Source of the DNA: Gammaproteobacteria bacterium
Lineage (GTDB): Bacteria; Pseudomonadota; Gammaproteobacteria; JAADGQ01
Assembly (NCBI GenBank): GCA_021648145.1
Contig: JAKITI010000010.1
Location: 1 to 64,000 of the forward strand
Length of the DNA: 64,000 bases
Direction of reading: 5' to 3'
Shown one piece after another: positions 7,796 to 55,140 of this stretch. A program made the translations under genes and the position numbers. The notes under the pieces are model-generated. The model was not told the origin of the DNA, ran no database searches, and saw nothing but the letters and a program-made list of their open reading frames with translations. Every line of letters begins with the position of its first letter. Position 1 is the stretch's first letter.

Positions 7796-8593
7796 TTATT
7801 TGTACTTTTCATACTCTGCCATCGCTTGTGGCATTAACGACTGAATTTGTGATATGCGATTTTCATCCAGTGGATGTGTGCTCAAAAACTCAGGTTGGCT
7901 CTGACCATTTTTATAATTAAAATCACGAAAACGCTGCCAAAACTTTACCGCTTCACGAGGATCATAACCCGCTCTAGCCATATAAATCAGCCCCATCTGA
8001 TCTGCTTCCAGCTCTTGTTTACGTGAATGAGGCAATGCCACCCCTACTTTGGAACTCACGCCATAAGCACTCATGATTAACCCTTGCGTTGCAGCAGACT
8101 GCGTTTGCATCGCTGTTTGAAGTATTTGCCCTCCCAATTGCAACACCAACCCCTGAGAAACACGCTCTGCCCCATGACGAGCCACAGCATGAGCCACTTC
8201 ATGAGCAATCACCGTGGCCATGCCGACCTCATTCAGAGTGATAGGTAATATGCCACTGTAAATACCGACTTTGCCACCTGGCAAGCAGTAGGCATTGGGC
8301 ACATCAGGTGAATCAAACAATACAAACTCCCACTGTGCATTTGGCAACTCTGCGACAGCGGAAATACGTTTTCCAACCGCCTGAATCATACTGTTTTTTG
8401 CAGCATCTTTTGAAATCGGTGTTGAGGCCTTTTGTTTTTCAAACTCACTCAAACCCATCTGAATCTCTTGCGACGGACTGACCAAAAGAAGCTGCGAACG
8501 CCCCGTTTCCGCGACCGTTGTACAACCAAAAACAACCCCGCACAACACCCCTGTAAAAGAAATTTTTATGATTTTTATTGTTACTTTAGCCAC
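7796..8593 (-). CDS. M48 family metalloprotease lipoprotein (LoiP-like)
   Basis: About 265 residues with a lipobox (GVVFGC) after a short hydrophobic start, placing it as a lipoprotein. The M48 catalytic motif HEVAH lies in a hydrophobic helix, and a third zinc ligand is likely in KQELEADQMG. It lacks the TPR half of the BepA-type protein nearby, resembling the small LoiP/YcaL proteases that help outer-membrane protein quality control. I start at the GTG at 8593 because AAGGG lies about 9 bases upstream; a TTG at 8629 or 8599 cannot be excluded. It lies downstream of the metA-type gene on the same strand. Confidence 0.8.
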   Translation of the reverse strand: MAKVTIKIIKISFTGVLCGVVFGCTTVAETGRSQLLLVSPSQEIQMGLSEFEKQKASTPISKDAAKNSMIQAVGKRISAVAELPNAQWEFVLFDSPDVPNAYCLPGGKVGIYSGILPITLNEVGMATVIAHEVAHAVARHGAERVSQGLVLQLGGQILQTAMQTQSAATQGLIMSAYGVSSKVGVALPHSRKQELEADQMGLIYMARAGYDPREAVKFWQRFRDFNYKNGQSQPEFLSTHPLDENRISQIQSLMPQAMAEYEKYK

Positions 8594-8651
8594 AGCCAAT
8601 AACCCTTGCTCTCTACACGGACAGCTCAATATAATAACCTGTGAACGCCCT

Positions 8652-11349: not shown

Positions 11350-14166
11350 TTAAAGAGTGTATCGTCTCCAACCGTCTTCCTGAGTCCACTTCAATTCATA
11401 TGTGGGCCAATAATTTAAGTCCAGCTTCAATGTCACTATATTCTCCCGCCCATTCAGATCAACAACCTTCAAACGAACTGAGTCACGATGCTTTTTTGTT
11501 TGTACCACAGACAAAAAGGCATCAAGATCCGGTACAGCGACACCATCAACATTAAGAATGCGCAAACTCCCAGCCAAACCAAAATGATTTGCAGGGCTTC
11601 CCCACCACGTCCAGGCAATATACACTCCGTCTGCGTCATATCCTCGCTGCGCTGCAATAGATCGGTGCGGAGCCTGAAGTAATGCGCCTGACCAACCCAC
11701 CACACGATCAGTGCCCATTCCACTTAATGAAACAGTGGGCACCTTTAATATCTGCTCTTTTCCTCGGCGCAATATAGTGACATCAATTATTTCTTTATCT
11801 CTGACCGCTTTCTCAACGTCACGAAAATTAGTCACAGGTGTACCATTGAGTGCGAGCAACAGATCCCCTTCAGTCAAAAGCCCAGCGGCAGGTGAACCGG
11901 CAACCAAGCGTGTAATCAGTAGCACCTCTCTACGCGCAGTATTGTGCGCTTCCAGCATGGTTACCCATTCGTTAGGCAACCCACGCTTGCGAGCTTCTGA
12001 AAGAGGCAACAGATAAAGCTCAACTTCTAACGAGCGCACTTTTGATGCAGGTGATTGACTCACCACATCAATAAGTTCCATCACCAACTCAGAAGGAATA
12101 CCACGCATCACGCTATTGATTTTTTTACCCGTCTGATAAGCAAAATTTGCCCATAGCGCAATAATTTTTCCATCTTCATTGGCCAATACAGCACCCACGC
12201 TATTGACACTGTTTGTAAGCGCTGCAACCTCAATATTTGTATCACGAAACCAAGGCACAGAAGGCACTGGAAAAATCGCCGCATCAACCGACCGGATTGT
12301 TGTACTTTGAACCGTTAGTTGATGATTGCCCTTCAAACCCACTTGCCACACCCGATCCCCCTGCTTTAATGGTTGATTAACAAACTCAGCACTTTTAACA
12401 GGCGTATCGCCAATTAAGGCAGGGTCATATGAGACAACCGCCATATTATGAAAAGGATGAACAAATTCAACTTTTCCAGGCACTTCCAAAGAGCCTGCAA
12501 ATGTAATATTTACATTGCCTAAAAAAGTGGGCACTGTATTTTGATCAACAACAATGAGCCCTTTTGTCGCGTCCAGCACAACACCTGTGCCAATATAACG
12601 AGAGTCGCGGACACCATCTATCCGAAATGGCATTTCGAACGTCACAATAGCTAATGAAGGTGCAATCGCTCTCGCTTTGGGGTCATCCACCTCGGTAAAC
12701 TGTGTTGAAGCAGGCTTTAATGGCCTCACTTTGGGGCCTTCTGCTAATGCTCTACAAGGCCAATAGCCTGATTTATCATCACGTTCACATGCTTTTACAG
12801 GAAACCAGCGACGATCCATGGAAATCACCGCCACCATTTCATGATTGGGATTACCTAAATTAAAAAAACGTATTGAGGCTTGATCGCCATCCGCCAACGT
12901 TGCAAGCACGGCTTTTAGATCATCTAAATTTCGAATGGGTTGATCATTCATAGAGGTGATCACGACACCGCGCACAACAGATTCATTACCCAGAACATAA
13001 CCTGAACTTGCGATATAAACACCTTCAACAGGAACATGATAGTTACGTGCTTGCTGATATGAGAGATCATGCAGCAAGCCACCCCCAAATGTAATATAGG
13101 ACGCTGGGGTTATCGCATGTAAGTCAGCTACTTTTAAAGTCACGCTCAATAACGTTCCGGCGCGTTCAATATCAAATACAACCTGATCACCGACAGAATT
13201 ATCCAGCAGTTCGGCTAAAGGTGGAAAGCTCGTCATTAACTGGCCATTAGCTTTCAGGAGGATATCACCCGGCATAAACAAGCCATCAGCGACCCCCTTT
13301 CTGATCACCTGATTTACAACCAGCATTCCAATACCTTTTGGGTGAGCATCACGAACCAATGTTTCAGATTCATGACTCAACCCTAATCGACGCAGCTCTT
13401 CATAAGGTTGGTGCCAAAATATTGTTTGCAATGTGCCTCTACTCACTGGCTGGTCAGCTTGAATTAATTTCAAAGCTCTTGTGATTCGATCAAGCGGTAA
13501 AAAAAAGCTCGCTGCATTTTTAAGATTAGCGCCTGCACTCAATGCAATCACATCCCCCGACATATCCACTACAGGCGAGCCAGACGCTCCGCCACTGATG
13601 CTGGAAGCGGCCTGCATATAAAAAGTATTAAAGTCGTTATAGCTGCCTTGGCCATAATTAGGTGCTCGGCGATCAAGACGTGCCAATGTTCCTGAAAGAA
13701 TCGATAAGTGTTCTCCCCCATCATTACCGATGACACGTATATCTTTACCAACAACTGCAGCATCAGGATTGAGTTTTAGCTCAACAGGATTATTAAATGA
13801 AAGCTCTGCTGGATCGTATTGAAAAAAACCAAAATCATGCACAGGATCTCGGTAAATGGGTTTCAAATCCACCTCTTCGTGATTCAAAAACATCCCCACC
13901 GCCATCACGGGACCAGGTTGAACCACATGGCGATTCGTTAAAATAATGCCACGTTTAGCATCAACAACAAATCCGGTGGCCTGTTGAGAGCTGTTCCTGC
14001 TGGTGTCAAAGGGGCGCGCACTGTCCACCTTCAATGAGATCACAGATTCTGAAACCCGATCAACGATCGTCTCCCAACTTACTTTATCGACTGCGAAAGT
14101 ATTGACACAAAACAAGAACGCAAAAATTCCCAGAAAAACCTGGCTGAGCCGGTTTGATGTATTCAT
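11350..14166 (-). CDS. Nma111-like HtrA serine protease with degenerate second protease domain
   Basis: A 938-residue secreted protein with a signal peptide ending near residue 25. The first trypsin-like domain has an intact triad: His80 (LTNRHVV), Asp111 (PVHDFGFF) and Ser195 (GGASGSPV). It is followed by PDZ-like regions. A second trypsin-like domain (about 515-700) lacks the triad: the His position reads DQNTVP and no GxSGxP is present. A final PDZ pair follows. LDRRAPNYG, YNDFNTFYMQAA and SRGTLQTIF match blocks I recall from the fungal nuclear HtrA-like protease Nma111/Ynm3, which has the same double-protease layout. It lies 2 bases downstream of der on the same strand. The function in bacteria is unknown; periplasmic quality control is likely. 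Confidence 0.8.
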   Translation of the reverse strand: MNTSNRLSQVFLGIFAFLFCVNTFAVDKVSWETIVDRVSESVISLKVDSARPFDTSRNSSQQATGFVVDAKRGIILTNRHVVQPGPVMAVGMFLNHEEVDLKPIYRDPVHDFGFFQYDPAELSFNNPVELKLNPDAAVVGKDIRVIGNDGGEHLSILSGTLARLDRRAPNYGQGSYNDFNTFYMQAASSISGGASGSPVVDMSGDVIALSAGANLKNAASFFLPLDRITRALKLIQADQPVSRGTLQTIFWHQPYEELRRLGLSHESETLVRDAHPKGIGMLVVNQVIRKGVADGLFMPGDILLKANGQLMTSFPPLAELLDNSVGDQVVFDIERAGTLLSVTLKVADLHAITPASYITFGGGLLHDLSYQQARNYHVPVEGVYIASSGYVLGNESVVRGVVITSMNDQPIRNLDDLKAVLATLADGDQASIRFFNLGNPNHEMVAVISMDRRWFPVKACERDDKSGYWPCRALAEGPKVRPLKPASTQFTEVDDPKARAIAPSLAIVTFEMPFRIDGVRDSRYIGTGVVLDATKGLIVVDQNTVPTFLGNVNITFAGSLEVPGKVEFVHPFHNMAVVSYDPALIGDTPVKSAEFVNQPLKQGDRVWQVGLKGNHQLTVQSTTIRSVDAAIFPVPSVPWFRDTNIEVAALTNSVNSVGAVLANEDGKIIALWANFAYQTGKKINSVMRGIPSELVMELIDVVSQSPASKVRSLEVELYLLPLSEARKRGLPNEWVTMLEAHNTARREVLLITRLVAGSPAAGLLTEGDLLLALNGTPVTNFRDVEKAVRDKEIIDVTILRRGKEQILKVPTVSLSGMGTDRVVGWSGALLQAPHRSIAAQRGYDADGVYIAWTWWGSPANHFGLAGSLRILNVDGVAVPDLDAFLSVVQTKKHRDSVRLKVVDLNGRENIVTLKLDLNYWPTYELKWTQEDGWRRYTL

Positions 14167-14168
14167 TA

Positions 14169-15596
14169 TTAACGTCCTGATTTTTTTCGATTTAGCTTTG
14201 TTCTGACATTTTTTTCAGAATTTGAACGACTCTTTCTTTTTTGTCTGGGTGTCACCAAATTAGGTTTTTTATCAGAATCACTGGCATAAGGGTTTTTACT
14301 GCTTTTGAACTGAAAACGAACCGGAGTGCCTTCCAGTCTTAACACTTTCGTAAATGTGTTCTCCAAAAAGCGTTTGTAAGAATCCGGTAGTGATTTTGTC
14401 TGGTTGCCATGCACAATAAACAGAGGTGGATTTTTTCCGCCTTGATGCGCATAACGCAGCTTTATACGTCGACCATGAACCAGTGGCGGTTGATTTTGAT
14501 CAACCACATCTTCGAGAATTTGCGTTAAACGTGGTGTCGGCACCTTGATCATTGCTGAGCGATATGCTTTTTGTGCAAACTTGAACAGATCACCGACCCC
14601 CGTACCATGCAGTGCTGAAATAAAATGAATTCTGGCAAAACCAACAAATGACAGTTTAAAGTCCAGCATTCGTTTGATCTCTTTACGCTTTTCAGAACTC
14701 AGGCCATCCCACTTATTAACAGCAATAATCAATGCACGACCACTTTCCAGCACATAACCAAGCAACCGGGCATCCTGATCACTCACCTCTTTATGTGCAT
14801 CCAGAACCAATATGACCACATTAGATTCTTCAATGGCTTTAAGTGTTTTGATGACGCTGAATTTTTCCAGCATATCATTCACTTTACTGCGCCTTCGCAC
14901 CCCTGCGGTATCAATCAAGGTATATTTTTGCTCACCACGTACAAACGGAATAAAAATACTGTCTCGTGTTGTACCAGGTTTGTCGTAAACCACCACGCGA
15001 TCTTCGCCCAGCATACGATTAACCAAGGTTGATTTACCCACATTCGGGCGACCAATAATTCCTAGCTTAATGCCACGATCGACTTTATTATCATCACCCT
15101 CTTCTTCAGGAAAGAGTTTAAACACTTCATCAAGAAGATCTTGAACACCCTCGCCATGTGCTGATGAAATTGCGATAGATTCACCCAGGCCAAGCGCTTG
15201 AAATTCAGCTGATACAATATCGTCGTTGAGCCTTTCAGTTTTATTGACAACCAAAAACAGCGGTTTACTTAAACAACGTAACCGTTCAGCCAGCACCTCA
15301 TCAATGGTGGAAAGCCCTTCTCGACCATCCACCAGAAAAAAAACAGCATCCGCCTCCTCAGCAGCCATCCAGGATTGCTCGGCCATGACAACATCAATCC
15401 CCCTGTTTTTTTCTGAGAGGCCACCTGTATCAATGACAGAATAAGGGCGATCTCCCAAACGTCCTTTCCCGTAAATACGGTCGCGTGTCAGACCAGGCTG
15501 GTTTGCCACCAATGCATCACGTGTGCGGGTTAAACGATTAAAAAGTGTTGATTTACCCACATTAGGGCGGCCGACCAAGGCAAAAACAGGGTTCAT
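14169..15596 (-). CDS. der: GTPase Der (EngA)
   Basis: A 475-residue ribosome-assembly GTPase with two tandem G domains. Each has a [10 protein letters not shown]-loop (about residues 8 and 185), DTGG or DTAG G3, and NKTE or NKWD G4 motifs. A KH-like C-terminal domain and a basic Lys/Arg/Ser-rich tail (last 45 residues) follow. Der acts in maturation of the 50S subunit. It follows bamB after 88 bases in the conserved hisS-yfgM-bamB-der order and precedes the Nma111-like gene by 2 bases. Confidence 0.97.
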
Positions 15597-15684: not shown

Positions 15685-16839
15685 TTAATCAGCTAAACGC
15701 AATGCAGTGAGCGTACCACTCTTGCCAACGATATAAAGCACTCCATCAGCCACAACAGGGTCACCGAAAATACCTGACTTATCAACCCGGTAACGAGAAA
15801 AAAAGGATCCTTCCTTTTGTGACAACAAGTGTATGTAACCTTCGTAATCCGAGACAACAACATAATCATCCAAAATAACGGGGGCACTTAATTGACGGCC
15901 ATGTAACTTTTCCTGTCGCCATAATGAAGCTCCTCCTCTTTGACTCAATGCCCACAGATGGCTTTGTTCATCAGTGATAAAAAGCTGCGTCTCATTGATC
16001 GCCATATTTTTAAAAGTAGAGATATTATGTGCCCAAAGAACTGCACCGCTGAACTGACCGACCGCCGCCACACGGCCTTGAAAGGTTGCAACATAAATGA
16101 CTTCTGAACCCAGCAGCGGAGCACTATCAATATCGACCATACGTTCCAACTCTGACCGCCCCTCTGGAATCGCGATCGTTGCCTCCCATAGAATTTCCCC
16201 ATCTTTTTGAGACACTGCAAGCATTTTACCATTAGCAAAACCGGCATATACATTGGCTTCATCGACAAGCAGCGGACTCTCACCACGCAATGACAATACG
16301 GGTACTTTTTGACTGATCGCCCAATGCTGCTTACCATTCGCAGCGTCCAAAGCAAATAGTTTACTATCACTTGTACGAGTGAATACCTGCCCTTTCGATT
16401 CAACAGGAGGCGATAACACTTCACTCGACAACATGCTTCGCCAAACTTCTTCCCCGTTGTTTCTATTGAGCGCCAACAACTCTCCATGATGTGATCCTAA
16501 TAATAAAAGATCATCTGAATAACCGACACCTGCCGAGAGCTCTACACCGGTATTAACACTCCATAGCTTTTCACCACTGTTTTGATCAAGTGCTATGACA
16601 CGTCCTTCACCGTCACCAAAATAGATATGTCCATCAGCCACCCGCAATGTTAATGGGTCTGTGGTTGTCGCAATCTCTCCATCCTTGTGAACCCACATCA
16701 CCTCAAGCTGAACAACAGGGTCAAACGGAGTGAGTTCAGCAGGAGGATCAACACGACTTTTATTGGAACTACATGCACTCAGCAATAGCACTAATAAAAC
16801 AGTGATACAGCATCGTTTTACTTGACCGCTGACTATCAA
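15685..16839 (-). CDS. bamB: Outer-membrane assembly lipoprotein BamB
   Basis: A 384-residue lipoprotein with lipobox LLSACSS near residue 20. The remainder is an eight-bladed beta-propeller built from repeated PQQ-like strands (repeats of W-x-G or LDA-xxG-xxxW such as LDQNSGEKLW, LNRNNGEEVW and LDAANGKQHW). BamB is an accessory subunit of the BAM complex that inserts beta-barrel proteins. The TTG start has AGGAGA about 7 bases upstream and overlaps the yfgM stop, implying translational coupling. Length and context match BamB. Confidence 0.95.
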   Translation of the reverse strand: MIVSGQVKRCCITVLLVLLLSACSSNKSRVDPPAELTPFDPVVQLEVMWVHKDGEIATTTDPLTLRVADGHIYFGDGEGRVIALDQNSGEKLWSVNTGVELSAGVGYSDDLLLLGSHHGELLALNRNNGEEVWRSMLSSEVLSPPVESKGQVFTRTSDSKLFALDAANGKQHWAISQKVPVLSLRGESPLLVDEANVYAGFANGKMLAVSQKDGEILWEATIAIPEGRSELERMVDIDSAPLLGSEVIYVATFQGRVAAVGQFSGAVLWAHNISTFKNMAINETQLFITDEQSHLWALSQRGGASLWRQEKLHGRQLSAPVILDDYVVVSDYEGYIHLLSQKEGSFFSRYRVDKSGIFGDPVVADGVLYIVGKSGTLTALRLAD

Positions 16840-51968: not shown

Positions 51969-53420
51969 TTATTCTTTCTCAGGAATTTTCAGTGCTAAAA
52001 AGTGAGGTCCAGAACCACGTTGCACCAACAAGGGGACAGACTTTCCTGCCGGAAGCCCATCAACTAATTTTTTGAACTGTGCAACACTCTCAATAGCAAT
52101 ATTATTAACTCTTAAAATAATATCACCTTGACGCAGACCACTTTCAGCGGCGATACCCTCTTTTACAGTTTCAACAAAAATACCTTGCTGCCCCTCTTCA
52201 AGCCGTTTTTTCTCCTCGGCTTCCAATACACGAACTACCAACCCCAGGCTTTTCACATTCGAAGTAGAGTTTGATACACCACCTGCGGCCAACTCTTCAT
52301 CTGTAGGCAGTTCACCAATAACGACTTTCAAAGTACGCTTTTTACCATTGCGGATAATTTCAACCGGCACACCTGTGTCCATTCGAGTGCGACCAACTAT
52401 AGGTGGCAAAGAAGAAGAGTCACCCACCTCATGCCCATTAAATTTCACGATAATATCGCCCACCTTAAACCCTGCTTTTTCAGAAGGACTATCCGGTAAT
52501 ACACGCGCAACTAATGCACCCATTGGCTTTTTCATATTAAAAGATTCAGCTAAATCACGAGTCACATCCTGAATCAAAACACCTAACCAACCACGACTCA
52601 CTTCACCTGTTTCTTTTAATTGATCAACAATATCCATCGCCATATCAATAGGGATCGCAAACGAAAGCCCCATAAAGCCACCAGTACGACTATAAATTTG
52701 TGAATTAATGCCCACAACCTCACCATCGAGATTAATTAATGGCCCCCCTGAGTTTCCTGGGTTAATCGCAACATCTGTTTGAATAAAAGGCACATAGTTT
52801 TCACTCGGTAAACTACGACCTTTAGCACTGACAATTCCTGCCGTAACCGAATAGTCAAACCCAAAAGGAGAGCCGATCGCTAAAACCCACTCACCGACTT
52901 TCAAACTGGATGACGAGCCAACTTTGATCACAGGAAGCTCTATATCACTCTCTATTTTTAGCAGAGCCATATCACTCTGCTTATCGGTACCAATCAGTTC
53001 AGCAATAAATTCCCGGCGATCATTGAGACGCACAACAATCTCTTCAGCATTAGTCACAACATGATTATTAGTCAATATATAACCATCTTTAGAGATAATA
53101 AACCCTGACCCGAGTGATTTTGCACCAGGATTTTCATAACCAAAACCTGGCGCACCTCTTTCATCAAAAAACCGCCGCAAAAGTTCATCGAACGGTGTTC
53201 CTTCGGGAATTTGAGGAAAGTGGTGACGCAACTCTGATGACTGCTTTACTTTTTTTTGCACCGTGCTGATATTTACCACAGCAGGACTGAGATCTTCAGC
53301 CAGCTCAGTAAAATCAGGCAAGCTACCCCCGACAGCTGTTGCTGCCACTGCACTTAACACCAATACGGCCACTGCAAACCGGACAATAAAAAAAGACTTC
53401 CACAAAACAGGTGAATTCAT
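51969..53420 (-). CDS. degP: Periplasmic serine protease DegP/MucD
   Basis: A 483-residue HtrA protease. A signal peptide (cut near residue 30), a trypsin-like domain with LTNNHVV, DMALLKIE and the catalytic serine in NPGNSGGPL, and two PDZ domains are present. It degrades misfolded envelope proteins and can act on RseA. The ATG at 53420 has GAGG six bases upstream; an in-frame TTG lies at 53432. It is the last gene of the rpoE-rseA-rseC-degP unit. Confidence 0.94.
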   Translation of the reverse strand: MNSPVLWKSFFIVRFAVAVLVLSAVAATAVGGSLPDFTELAEDLSPAVVNISTVQKKVKQSSELRHHFPQIPEGTPFDELLRRFFDERGAPGFGYENPGAKSLGSGFIISKDGYILTNNHVVTNAEEIVVRLNDRREFIAELIGTDKQSDMALLKIESDIELPVIKVGSSSSLKVGEWVLAIGSPFGFDYSVTAGIVSAKGRSLPSENYVPFIQTDVAINPGNSGGPLINLDGEVVGINSQIYSRTGGFMGLSFAIPIDMAMDIVDQLKETGEVSRGWLGVLIQDVTRDLAESFNMKKPMGALVARVLPDSPSEKAGFKVGDIIVKFNGHEVGDSSSLPPIVGRTRMDTGVPVEIIRNGKKRTLKVVIGELPTDEELAAGGVSNSTSNVKSLGLVVRVLEAEEKKRLEEGQQGIFVETVKEGIAAESGLRQGDIILRVNNIAIESVAQFKKLVDGLPAGKSVPLLVQRGSGPHFLALKIPEKE

Positions 53421-53446
53421 ACGATACCTCAAATAAAATTAAATCT

Positions 53447-53914
53447 TTAAGTGGCCAACCGTACCAGTAACGGTTGATAATGCGGATCTTTCGCTATTTT
53501 TTGTGAGTAATTTTTTAACCAAAAAAATCCAGTAAACAGCCCTGAAAAAGCAAACACAACAGAGATACCATTACGGTATTCCATAAAAAAATTTTGCCCC
53601 AAAAGGTCACCGAAAAAAGCAGCGAGTAACATCAGTAACAGAGGAATGGCATAAACAGCGAATGAACCTGCCATCAAAGCCTTTTGATCAACACTCACCA
53701 CCACTTCATCACCCACATTTGCAGCAATTACATTGATGGTTTTGACCGAAACAGATTTCGAACTCATCATTTTCGCCAAAGTCGCCGTGCCACATTCACT
53801 TTTTGCTGCACATCCATTACAGCCTGGCTTACGAGCAATCTCTACCCAAGCATAGTCTCCTTCAACTTGAGTAACCCACCCTCGTTCTTCTAGTCGTTCA
53901 CTACAGTCATCCAT
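53447..53914 (-). CDS. rseC: SoxR-reducing / sigma-E factor RseC
   Basis: A 155-residue inner-membrane protein with a cysteine-rich N-terminal cytoplasmic part (CNGCAAKSECG, about residues 33-43) and two membrane helices (about 85-120). RseC/MucC proteins positively modulate sigma-E, and paralogues help reduce SoxR. It is in the gap between rseA and degP. The RseB gene, expected between rseA and rseC, is absent. Confidence 0.88.
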   Translation of the reverse strand: MDDCSERLEERGWVTQVEGDYAWVEIARKPGCNGCAAKSECGTATLAKMMSSKSVSVKTINVIAANVGDEVVVSVDQKALMAGSFAVYAIPLLLMLLAAFFGDLLGQNFFMEYRNGISVVFAFSGLFTGFFWLKNYSQKIAKDPHYQPLLVRLAT

Positions 53915-53946
53915 GTTAATAAAGTTCCTGAATTAAAACGTGTCAG

Positions 53947-54516
53947 TTAATTTTTTTCAAAATCAACCAGATTAATTGAAGGTGACTCTCTAGGCACCAC
54001 GTAAATATCACTGCCATAGCCATTGGCAGGATATTTAAAACTGTAATCTAATTCAGATTGCCCAACGATCCAGTCGGGGTTACCTTGTTCAAATGTTTCA
54101 TGTGTTGCTTTTGGGGTCACATCTGGAGCAACAGTTGCGACTTGTGGCGATAAAACATCCATACTGCCTGGTGTATTGAAACTCCCCCACTGGAAGCCAA
54201 TGACCGTCACCGCAGCCACAGATGCGGCCAAAGCCAGCCCTGCAACAGGTTTAACAAAAGAAGGGTACACAACGACAGAAGAAGTTGGAGTCAATGCCGG
54301 TTCAGACTCTAACGCTTTAAAAATATTTGAAGTCAGTGCTTGACCGCTCTTTTCTGGAAGATTATTTCGTATTGCATCACCAATCAAATGATAACACCCC
54401 CAGTGATACCGAAGTGTTTCGTCATCCTTTAAGTCACACAGTAACCGAGCTGTTTTCTGATGGTCTAATTCACCATCCATTAACATTGAAATTTTAATCG
54501 CAGTCTGTTCCGTCAT
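53947..54516 (-). CDS. rseA: Anti-sigma-E factor RseA
   Basis: A 189-residue protein with an N-terminal cytoplasmic sigma-E-binding domain (MLMDGELD, about residues 11-18, the conserved block), a transmembrane segment (about 92-110) and a periplasmic tail. In the known pathway, DegS and RseP cut it to free RpoE. It is 30 bases downstream of rpoE. Confidence 0.92.
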   Translation of the reverse strand: MTEQTAIKISMLMDGELDHQKTARLLCDLKDDETLRYHWGCYHLIGDAIRNNLPEKSGQALTSNIFKALESEPALTPTSSVVVYPSFVKPVAGLALAASVAAVTVIGFQWGSFNTPGSMDVLSPQVATVAPDVTPKATHETFEQGNPDWIVGQSELDYSFKYPANGYGSDIYVVPRESPSINLVDFEKN

Positions 54517-54546
54517 AACAACACCTTTAACATGTTAGTTCATCTC

Positions 54547-55140
54547 TTAAAGTAAAGGTTCAAGCCTTTTTTGAATTGCATCTCGTGCTCTGAAAATTCG
54601 GGAACGCACCGTTCCAACAGGGCAATCCATTGATTGAGCAATCTCTTCATAACTAAGCCCTTCTAACTCTCTTAATGTAATCGCAGTGCGTAAATCACTG
54701 GGTAACTGATCAATTGCATTGAATACAGTCTTCTCAATTTCATCTTTAAATAACAAGCGCTCTGGCGTTGCAAACTCTTTAAGTGCAGATGCTGATTCAA
54801 ATTGCTCCGCATCTTCAGCATCAATATCAACACTCGGTGGCCGCCTACTCCGTGATATCAGATAATTTTTAGCCGTATTAACCGAAATTCGATAGAGCCA
54901 CGTATAAAAAGCACTATCACCACGAAATCCAGGCAGTGCCCGGTAGGCTTTAATAAATGCTTCTTGTGTAACATCCTGAACCTCATCACTATCACGAATA
55001 TAACGAGAAACTAACTTGGCGACTTTATGCTGGTATTTTAAAACCAAAATATCAAAAGCTTTTTTATCGCCATTTTGAACCCGTGTTACGAGCTCTTTAT
55101 CTACACTATATTCGCCCGTCCGGACTATCCCCTTTTGCAA
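54547..55140 (-). CDS. rpoE: RNA polymerase sigma factor RpoE (sigma-E/AlgU type)
   Basis: A 197-residue ECF sigma factor. Region 2 (VQNGDKKAFDIL; YQHKVAKLVSRYI; VTQEAFIKAYRAL; FRGDSAFYTWLYRI) and region 4 (LRELEGLSYEEIAQ; CPVGTVRSRIFRAR) match the RpoE/AlgU group. It directs envelope-stress and lipopolysaccharide genes. The TTG start at 55140 has AGGAAG seven bases upstream, a strong site. A sigma-E promoter precedes it (55166-55193), so the gene is autoregulated. Confidence 0.95.
   Translation of the reverse strand: MQKGIVRTGEYSVDKELVTRVQNGDKKAFDILVLKYQHKVAKLVSRYIRDSDEVQDVTQEAFIKAYRALPGFRGDSAFYTWLYRISVNTAKNYLISRSRRPPSVDIDAEDAEQFESASALKEFATPERLLFKDEIEKTVFNAIDQLPSDLRTAITLRELEGLSYEEIAQSMDCPVGTVRSRIFRARDAIQKRLEPLL

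Follow-up and report, generated by a model that had tools for sequence, protein, structure and literature searches.

The window analysed here, 64,000 nucleotides of a gammaproteobacterial genome, encodes a 938-aa HtrA-type protein with two protease/PDZ units (Table 1). The open reading frame starts with ATG and is preceded by an AGGA ribosome-binding site. Only 2 nt separate the stop codon of der from this ATG, which suggests co-transcription, and the protease gene is probably transcribed together with bamB and der in this organism. The GC content of the gene (45%, against 43% in the window) gives no sign of a recent import. A 277-aa minus-strand ORF (7796-8629) resembles the peptidase portion of BepA, a beta-barrel assembly-enhancing protease, with a score under the cut-off. 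In an 87%-identical relative (L003) an extra 776-aa ORF, absent from the window, lies between the protease and a phosphatase gene (L003:7869-10199).

Table 1 Features of the double-unit protease gene, its neighbours and the degP gene of the window
Feature	Position	Strand	Basis
Double-unit HtrA protease gene (Nma111/DEG7-type), 938 aa	11350..14166	-	ORF, Pfam, AGGA site, spacing to der
Signal peptide, residues 1-25, predicted cleavage TFA/VDK	14092..14166	-	n/h/c-region heuristic; low pLDDT at residues 21-27
Active protease domain, residues 31-236	13459..14076	-	Trypsin_2 at 63-209; structure model
Catalytic His80	13927..13929	-	H in 60/60 sequences
Catalytic Asp111	13834..13836	-	D in 60/60 sequences
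Catalytic Ser195 (GGASGSP)	13582..13584	-	S in 60/60 sequences
PDZ domain 1, residues 248-345	13132..13425	-	PDZ_6/PDZ_2; structure model
PDZ domain 2, PDZ_1 (PF12812) type, residues 349-449	12820..13122	-	PF12812 at 351-426
Cys460...Cys471 pair, predicted disulfide near joint of the two units	12754..12789	-	60/60 bacterial sequences
Degenerate protease domain, residues 496-704 (His to Asn543, Asp to Asn574, Ser loop lost)	12055..12681	-	Half-to-half alignment, residue counts, pLDDT
PDZ domain 3, residues 709-810	11737..12042	-	PDZ at 747-787; structure model
PDZ domain 4, PDZ_1-like, residues 815-930	11377..11724	-	Weak second PF12812 match at 11491-11712; structure model
der (EngA GTPase), directly upstream of protease gene	14169..15596	-	TIGR03594, 571 bits; 2-nt spacing
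bamB, outer-membrane assembly lipoprotein, upstream, same direction	15685..16839	-	TIGR03300, 405 bits
Ordinary degP/mucD (comparison only)	51969..53432	-	TIGR02037, 506 bits; no PDZ_1

Domain build and predicted export

Searches against Pfam detected Trypsin_2 (107 bits), PDZ_1 (PF12812, 99 bits in two stretches) as well as PDZ_6, PDZ_2 and PDZ. The PDZ_1 domain following the first PDZ domain exceeds its cut-off (28 bits) and is present in 27 of 27 aligned members. A profile-profile alignment of the N- and the C-terminal half extends over 428 columns (E=2.6e-49), which shows that a complete PD-PDZ-PDZ unit has been duplicated in tandem to form the protein. The triad H80/D111/S195 of the first unit is invariant in 60 bacterial sequences. 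In the second unit, none of the same sequences has His at the corresponding site, 53 carry Asn in place of the catalytic Asp, and the Ser loop has been lost. Judging by these residues, the second protease domain is dead and the first catalytic unit is intact. An AlphaFold2 model built with 27 aligned members (mean pLDDT 88.7, pTM 0.84) predicts a well-formed fold for the second protease domain, with pLDDT mostly above 90. The build given in the initial annotation, an intact protease domain and PDZ domains followed by a degenerate protease domain and further PDZ domains, was thus confirmed by Pfam, half alignment and structure prediction. In the single-chain model, pLDDT falls below 50 in stretches of the active-site loops (167-181, 187-192 and 213-220). 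A Foldseek search against the PDB matched one unit to solved structures of DegP, DegQ and Deg2/Deg9; a solved double-unit relative was not found there.

A signal peptide of the Sec type, also noticed in the initial annotation as a signal peptide, is recognised by simple n/h/c-region rules, a crude heuristic, in the 938-aa protein as in 53 of 60 sequences, and a periplasmic location of the protease is well supported. Three homologues from Alteromonadaceae (L032, L057 and L058) carry a lipobox-like motif at their start and are probably lipoproteins, not free periplasmic proteins. Both C460 and C471 are found in all 60 bacterial sequences, and in 40 of them they are the sole cysteines after the signal peptide. 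The pair is missing in the provisional Nma111 and DEG7 sequences (see below), which hold 13-15 other cysteines, and the DegP of the window has no cysteine at all. Given the oxidising periplasm, the simplest reading is that C460 and C471 probably form a disulfide. L059 and L060, two gammaproteobacterial members that have diverged strongly and share a long branch, still have the triad and the cysteine pair.

Kinship with Nma111 and DEG7

The sequences of yeast Nma111 and Arabidopsis DEG7 used in all comparisons are provisional versions and not database entries, and their similarity to the 938-aa protein could be inflated. The provisional Nma111 has 999 residues, two more than the 997 of the database entry; H121, D152 and S235 are in place and its Pfam build was checked. 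The provisional DEG7 comprises 1097 aa. In BLASTP the 938-aa protein shares 35% identity over 911 aa (566 bits) with the provisional Nma111 and 46% and 37% with the two halves of the provisional DEG7, compared with 22% over 388 aa (46 bits) for the DegP of the window. A profile made of bacterial sequences only scores about 895 bits for Nma111 and 969 bits for DEG7, again with the provisional sequences, and 63 bits for this DegP. These scores are strong evidence only if the provisional sequences are correct. The assignment to Nma111 and not to DegP, put forward from the single sequence, is supported and can be extended to DEG7. Independently of the provisional sequences, the kinship is also backed by two reports. 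PDZ1 was described in fungal but not in mammalian HtrA, and some bacterial proteins were found to be closer to yeast HtrA than to human HtrA (PMC5982838). Furthermore, DEG7 has the order PD-PDZ-PDZ-inactive PD-PDZ-PDZ, i.e. two proteases and four PDZ domains in about 1,000 aa (PMC3473262).

The window also contains an ordinary degP, as the initial annotation had noted. It exceeds the TIGR02037 cut-off of 416 bits with a score of 506, compared with 138 bits for the 938-aa protein, and adjoins rpoE and rseC. At 51969-55140 (minus strand), rpoE is followed by an unnamed ORF at the place of rseA and then by rseC and degP, an order that is also that of the Pseudomonas algU-muc cluster. Two protease/PDZ units do not fit DegP/DegQ with their single protease domain and one or two PDZ domains. 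When the family profile was run over 200 Pseudomonadota genomes, proteins of two genomes scored 1138-1403 bits and all others at most 75; this gap indicates a sharply defined family. Single-unit Pseudomonadota proteins with a weak PDZ_1 (L123-L131, 479-585 aa) were considered as pre-duplication forms and rejected, for they score DegP-like (76-91 bits). Known Nma111/DEG7 members reside in the nucleus or in plastids, compartments that bacteria lack, and the 938-aa protein has a signal peptide instead. As location is a matter of the host and not of the architecture, this marks a variant and does not serve to define the family. By its sequence, the 938-aa protein is clearly separate from DegP and best explained as a secreted double HtrA of the Nma111/DEG7 family from a bacterium.

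Distribution and descent

When one genome per species was scanned with patterns from the 938-aa protein, 41 loci were obtained, mainly in gammaproteobacteria and additionally in Deltaproteobacteria/Nannocystis. Profile searches, for which Pseudomonadota and Myxococcota were sampled, detected the family in 5 of 398 genomes of the former and in 69 of 237 genomes of the latter phylum (29% of those sampled, in overlapping draws), and in none of roughly 150 sampled Pseudomonadota genomes outside the class of the window. Hence, the family is rare in gammaproteobacteria, common in Myxococcota and centred there. IMG/VR contained no relative when scanned with the 938-aa protein and with the profile, and searches of plasmids and phages gave DegP-type matches only. 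In Myxococcota 12 of 21 loci have one neighbour family in common, and this partly shared synteny points to a long residence; by eye the shared neighbours look like housekeeping genes. Two records labelled Klebsiella pneumoniae and Rhodospirillaceae (L041 and L004) contain homologues which fall among Myxococcota and gammaproteobacteria, and their labels look wrong. One Myxococcota homologue (L081) has an in-frame TAA.

The cleaned full-length tree is composed of three groups, the gammaproteobacteria (support 99/99), the Myxococcota (86/89) and the two eukaryotes with their provisional sequences (64/57). Both eukaryotic sequences are placed outside the gammaproteobacterial clade with Myxococcota as their nearest bacterial rows, and a clade uniting these provisional sequences with the protein of the window is mildly rejected (p-AU 0.029). 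A tree of the separate halves, also with provisional eukaryotic sequences, unites all N-halves and all C-halves across the kingdoms with 100/100 each, which argues for a duplication that happened once, before the bacterial and eukaryotic members parted. Rooting on DegP gave no usable root, as the outgroup branch measures about 10 changes per column, and reciprocal rooting of the halves was contradictory, with a root within Myxococcota for the N-halves and within gammaproteobacteria for the C-halves. With DegP too far away and the halves in disagreement the root cannot be placed, and the trees indicate no direction of transfer. The phylogeny of bacterial and provisional eukaryotic homologues points to a shared duplication but gives no direction of descent; the suggestion that the bacterial protein hints at the origin of the eukaryotic one is not supported, even if the eukaryotes lie beside Myxococcota.

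These trees bear on three accounts of the resemblance. If the protein had arisen in bacteria from an ordinary DegP or DegQ by a separate duplication and fusion, its likeness to Nma111 would be convergent; both units are indeed HtrA folds with DegP/DegQ as the best solved-structure matches. However, the grouping by half and not by organism contradicts such a fusion, as do the N-half profile (at most about 93 bits for DegP proteins, 556-603 for the provisional eukaryotic N-halves) and the absence of PDZ_1 from the DegP of the window. This account is largely refuted and we give it hardly any credence. A transfer from a eukaryote to bacteria, followed by the addition of a signal peptide, would agree with the patchy spread in Pseudomonadota and the contradictory rooting, but appears rather improbable in view of the deep bacterial diversity and the frequency and partly shared synteny in Myxococcota. 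Furthermore, the bacterial sequences form two broad clades with the eukaryotic ones outside both, and both reciprocal roots fall among bacteria, though at different places. Tentatively, and with more doubt than confidence, we consider that Nma111/DEG7 may descend from an already duplicated periplasmic enzyme of a Myxococcota-like donor, with loss of the signal peptide and the disulfide on the move to nucleus, cytosol and plastid. Such a donor would conflict with the literature, in which eukaryotic HtrA is derived from Alphaproteobacteria by way of mitochondria.

Proposed function and comparison with known systems

We regard it as quite probable that the protein is an exported double HtrA of the Nma111/DEG7 family which acts in periplasmic quality control, with an oligomer assembled by the dead unit and a disulfide between the paired cysteines. 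After export, the first unit would cleave envelope proteins that are misfolded or exposed, with no need for ATP, and the PDZ domains may select or gate its substrates. The second protease domain would have given up cleavage and keep the oligomer assembled, a role reported for DEG7 of Arabidopsis. The C460/C471 disulfide would stabilise the joint between the two units. By analogy, the most likely role is that of an ATP-independent periplasmic protease/chaperone with the dead unit as its assembly or scaffold part. This draws on the trimerisation that PMC3473262, with reference to Schuhmann 2011, attributes to the inactive domain of DEG7 and that is known for the Arabidopsis protein only, and on the chaperone activity of yeast Nma111 (PMC4877387). 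The enzyme would work beside DegP. Concerning the periplasmic function not described for DegP that had been suggested initially, the location is well supported; that the role differs from that of DegP is an inference.

The probable co-transcription with bamB and der suggests a possible link with outer-membrane protein assembly, and the protein might be a dedicated protease of this process, working with the BAM complex and not in general quality control. The position of the gene behind bamB and der, so close to the latter, speaks for this specialisation. On the other hand, the arrangement was seen only in the window and in L003; a search for conserved neighbours revealed unrelated genes, both in further gammaproteobacteria and in Myxococcota, and no functional partner. 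With surroundings that change from lineage to lineage, the proximity to bamB may be a coincidence, and a dedicated assembly protease is unlikely. General periplasmic quality control is the preferred reading.

To our knowledge, Nma111/DEG7 proteins have been studied only in eukaryotes, and their origin is loosely put as mitochondrial or bacterial. In the part of the open literature that was searched, neither experiments on any bacterial double-unit member nor a paper on the bacterial double-unit family or one joining Nma111 with myxobacteria were found. Proteins of this kind are known; the bacterial branch, which is exported, probably carries a disulfide and has its centre in Myxococcota, appears to be undescribed in this literature. 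That centre and the invariant cysteine pair were not visible to the earlier reading of a single sequence. As an outgroup for the eukaryotic protein the branch makes bacteria usable to ask where the eukaryotic enzyme arose, and it offers a simpler system for a pseudoprotease as an assembly device. In addition, it gives Myxococcota and some gammaproteobacteria an envelope HtrA of a second type next to DegP.

Among the known systems, DegP/DegQ/MucD are likewise periplasmic HtrA proteases with the same catalytic fold, but consist of one unit without a dead domain, and the DegP of the window has no PDZ_1 above cut-off. The plant proteins Deg2/Deg9 share a PD with two PDZ-type domains and are structural neighbours in Foldseek; they differ by their single unit and a low identity of 13-17%. 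Arabidopsis DEG7 (clade III Deg/HtrA) has the same PD-PDZ-PDZ-inactive PD-PDZ-PDZ order, but a longer inter-unit linker, no cysteine pair in the provisional sequence and, as a stromal chloroplast protein (PMC3473262), another location. Nma111/Ynm3 of S. cerevisiae also combines two HtrA units, the first active and the second degenerate, with PDZ domains including PDZ_1. In contrast, the bacterial protein has a signal peptide and an invariant cysteine pair, which is absent from the provisional yeast sequence, and yeast Nma111 is a nuclear protein with an N-terminal NLS.
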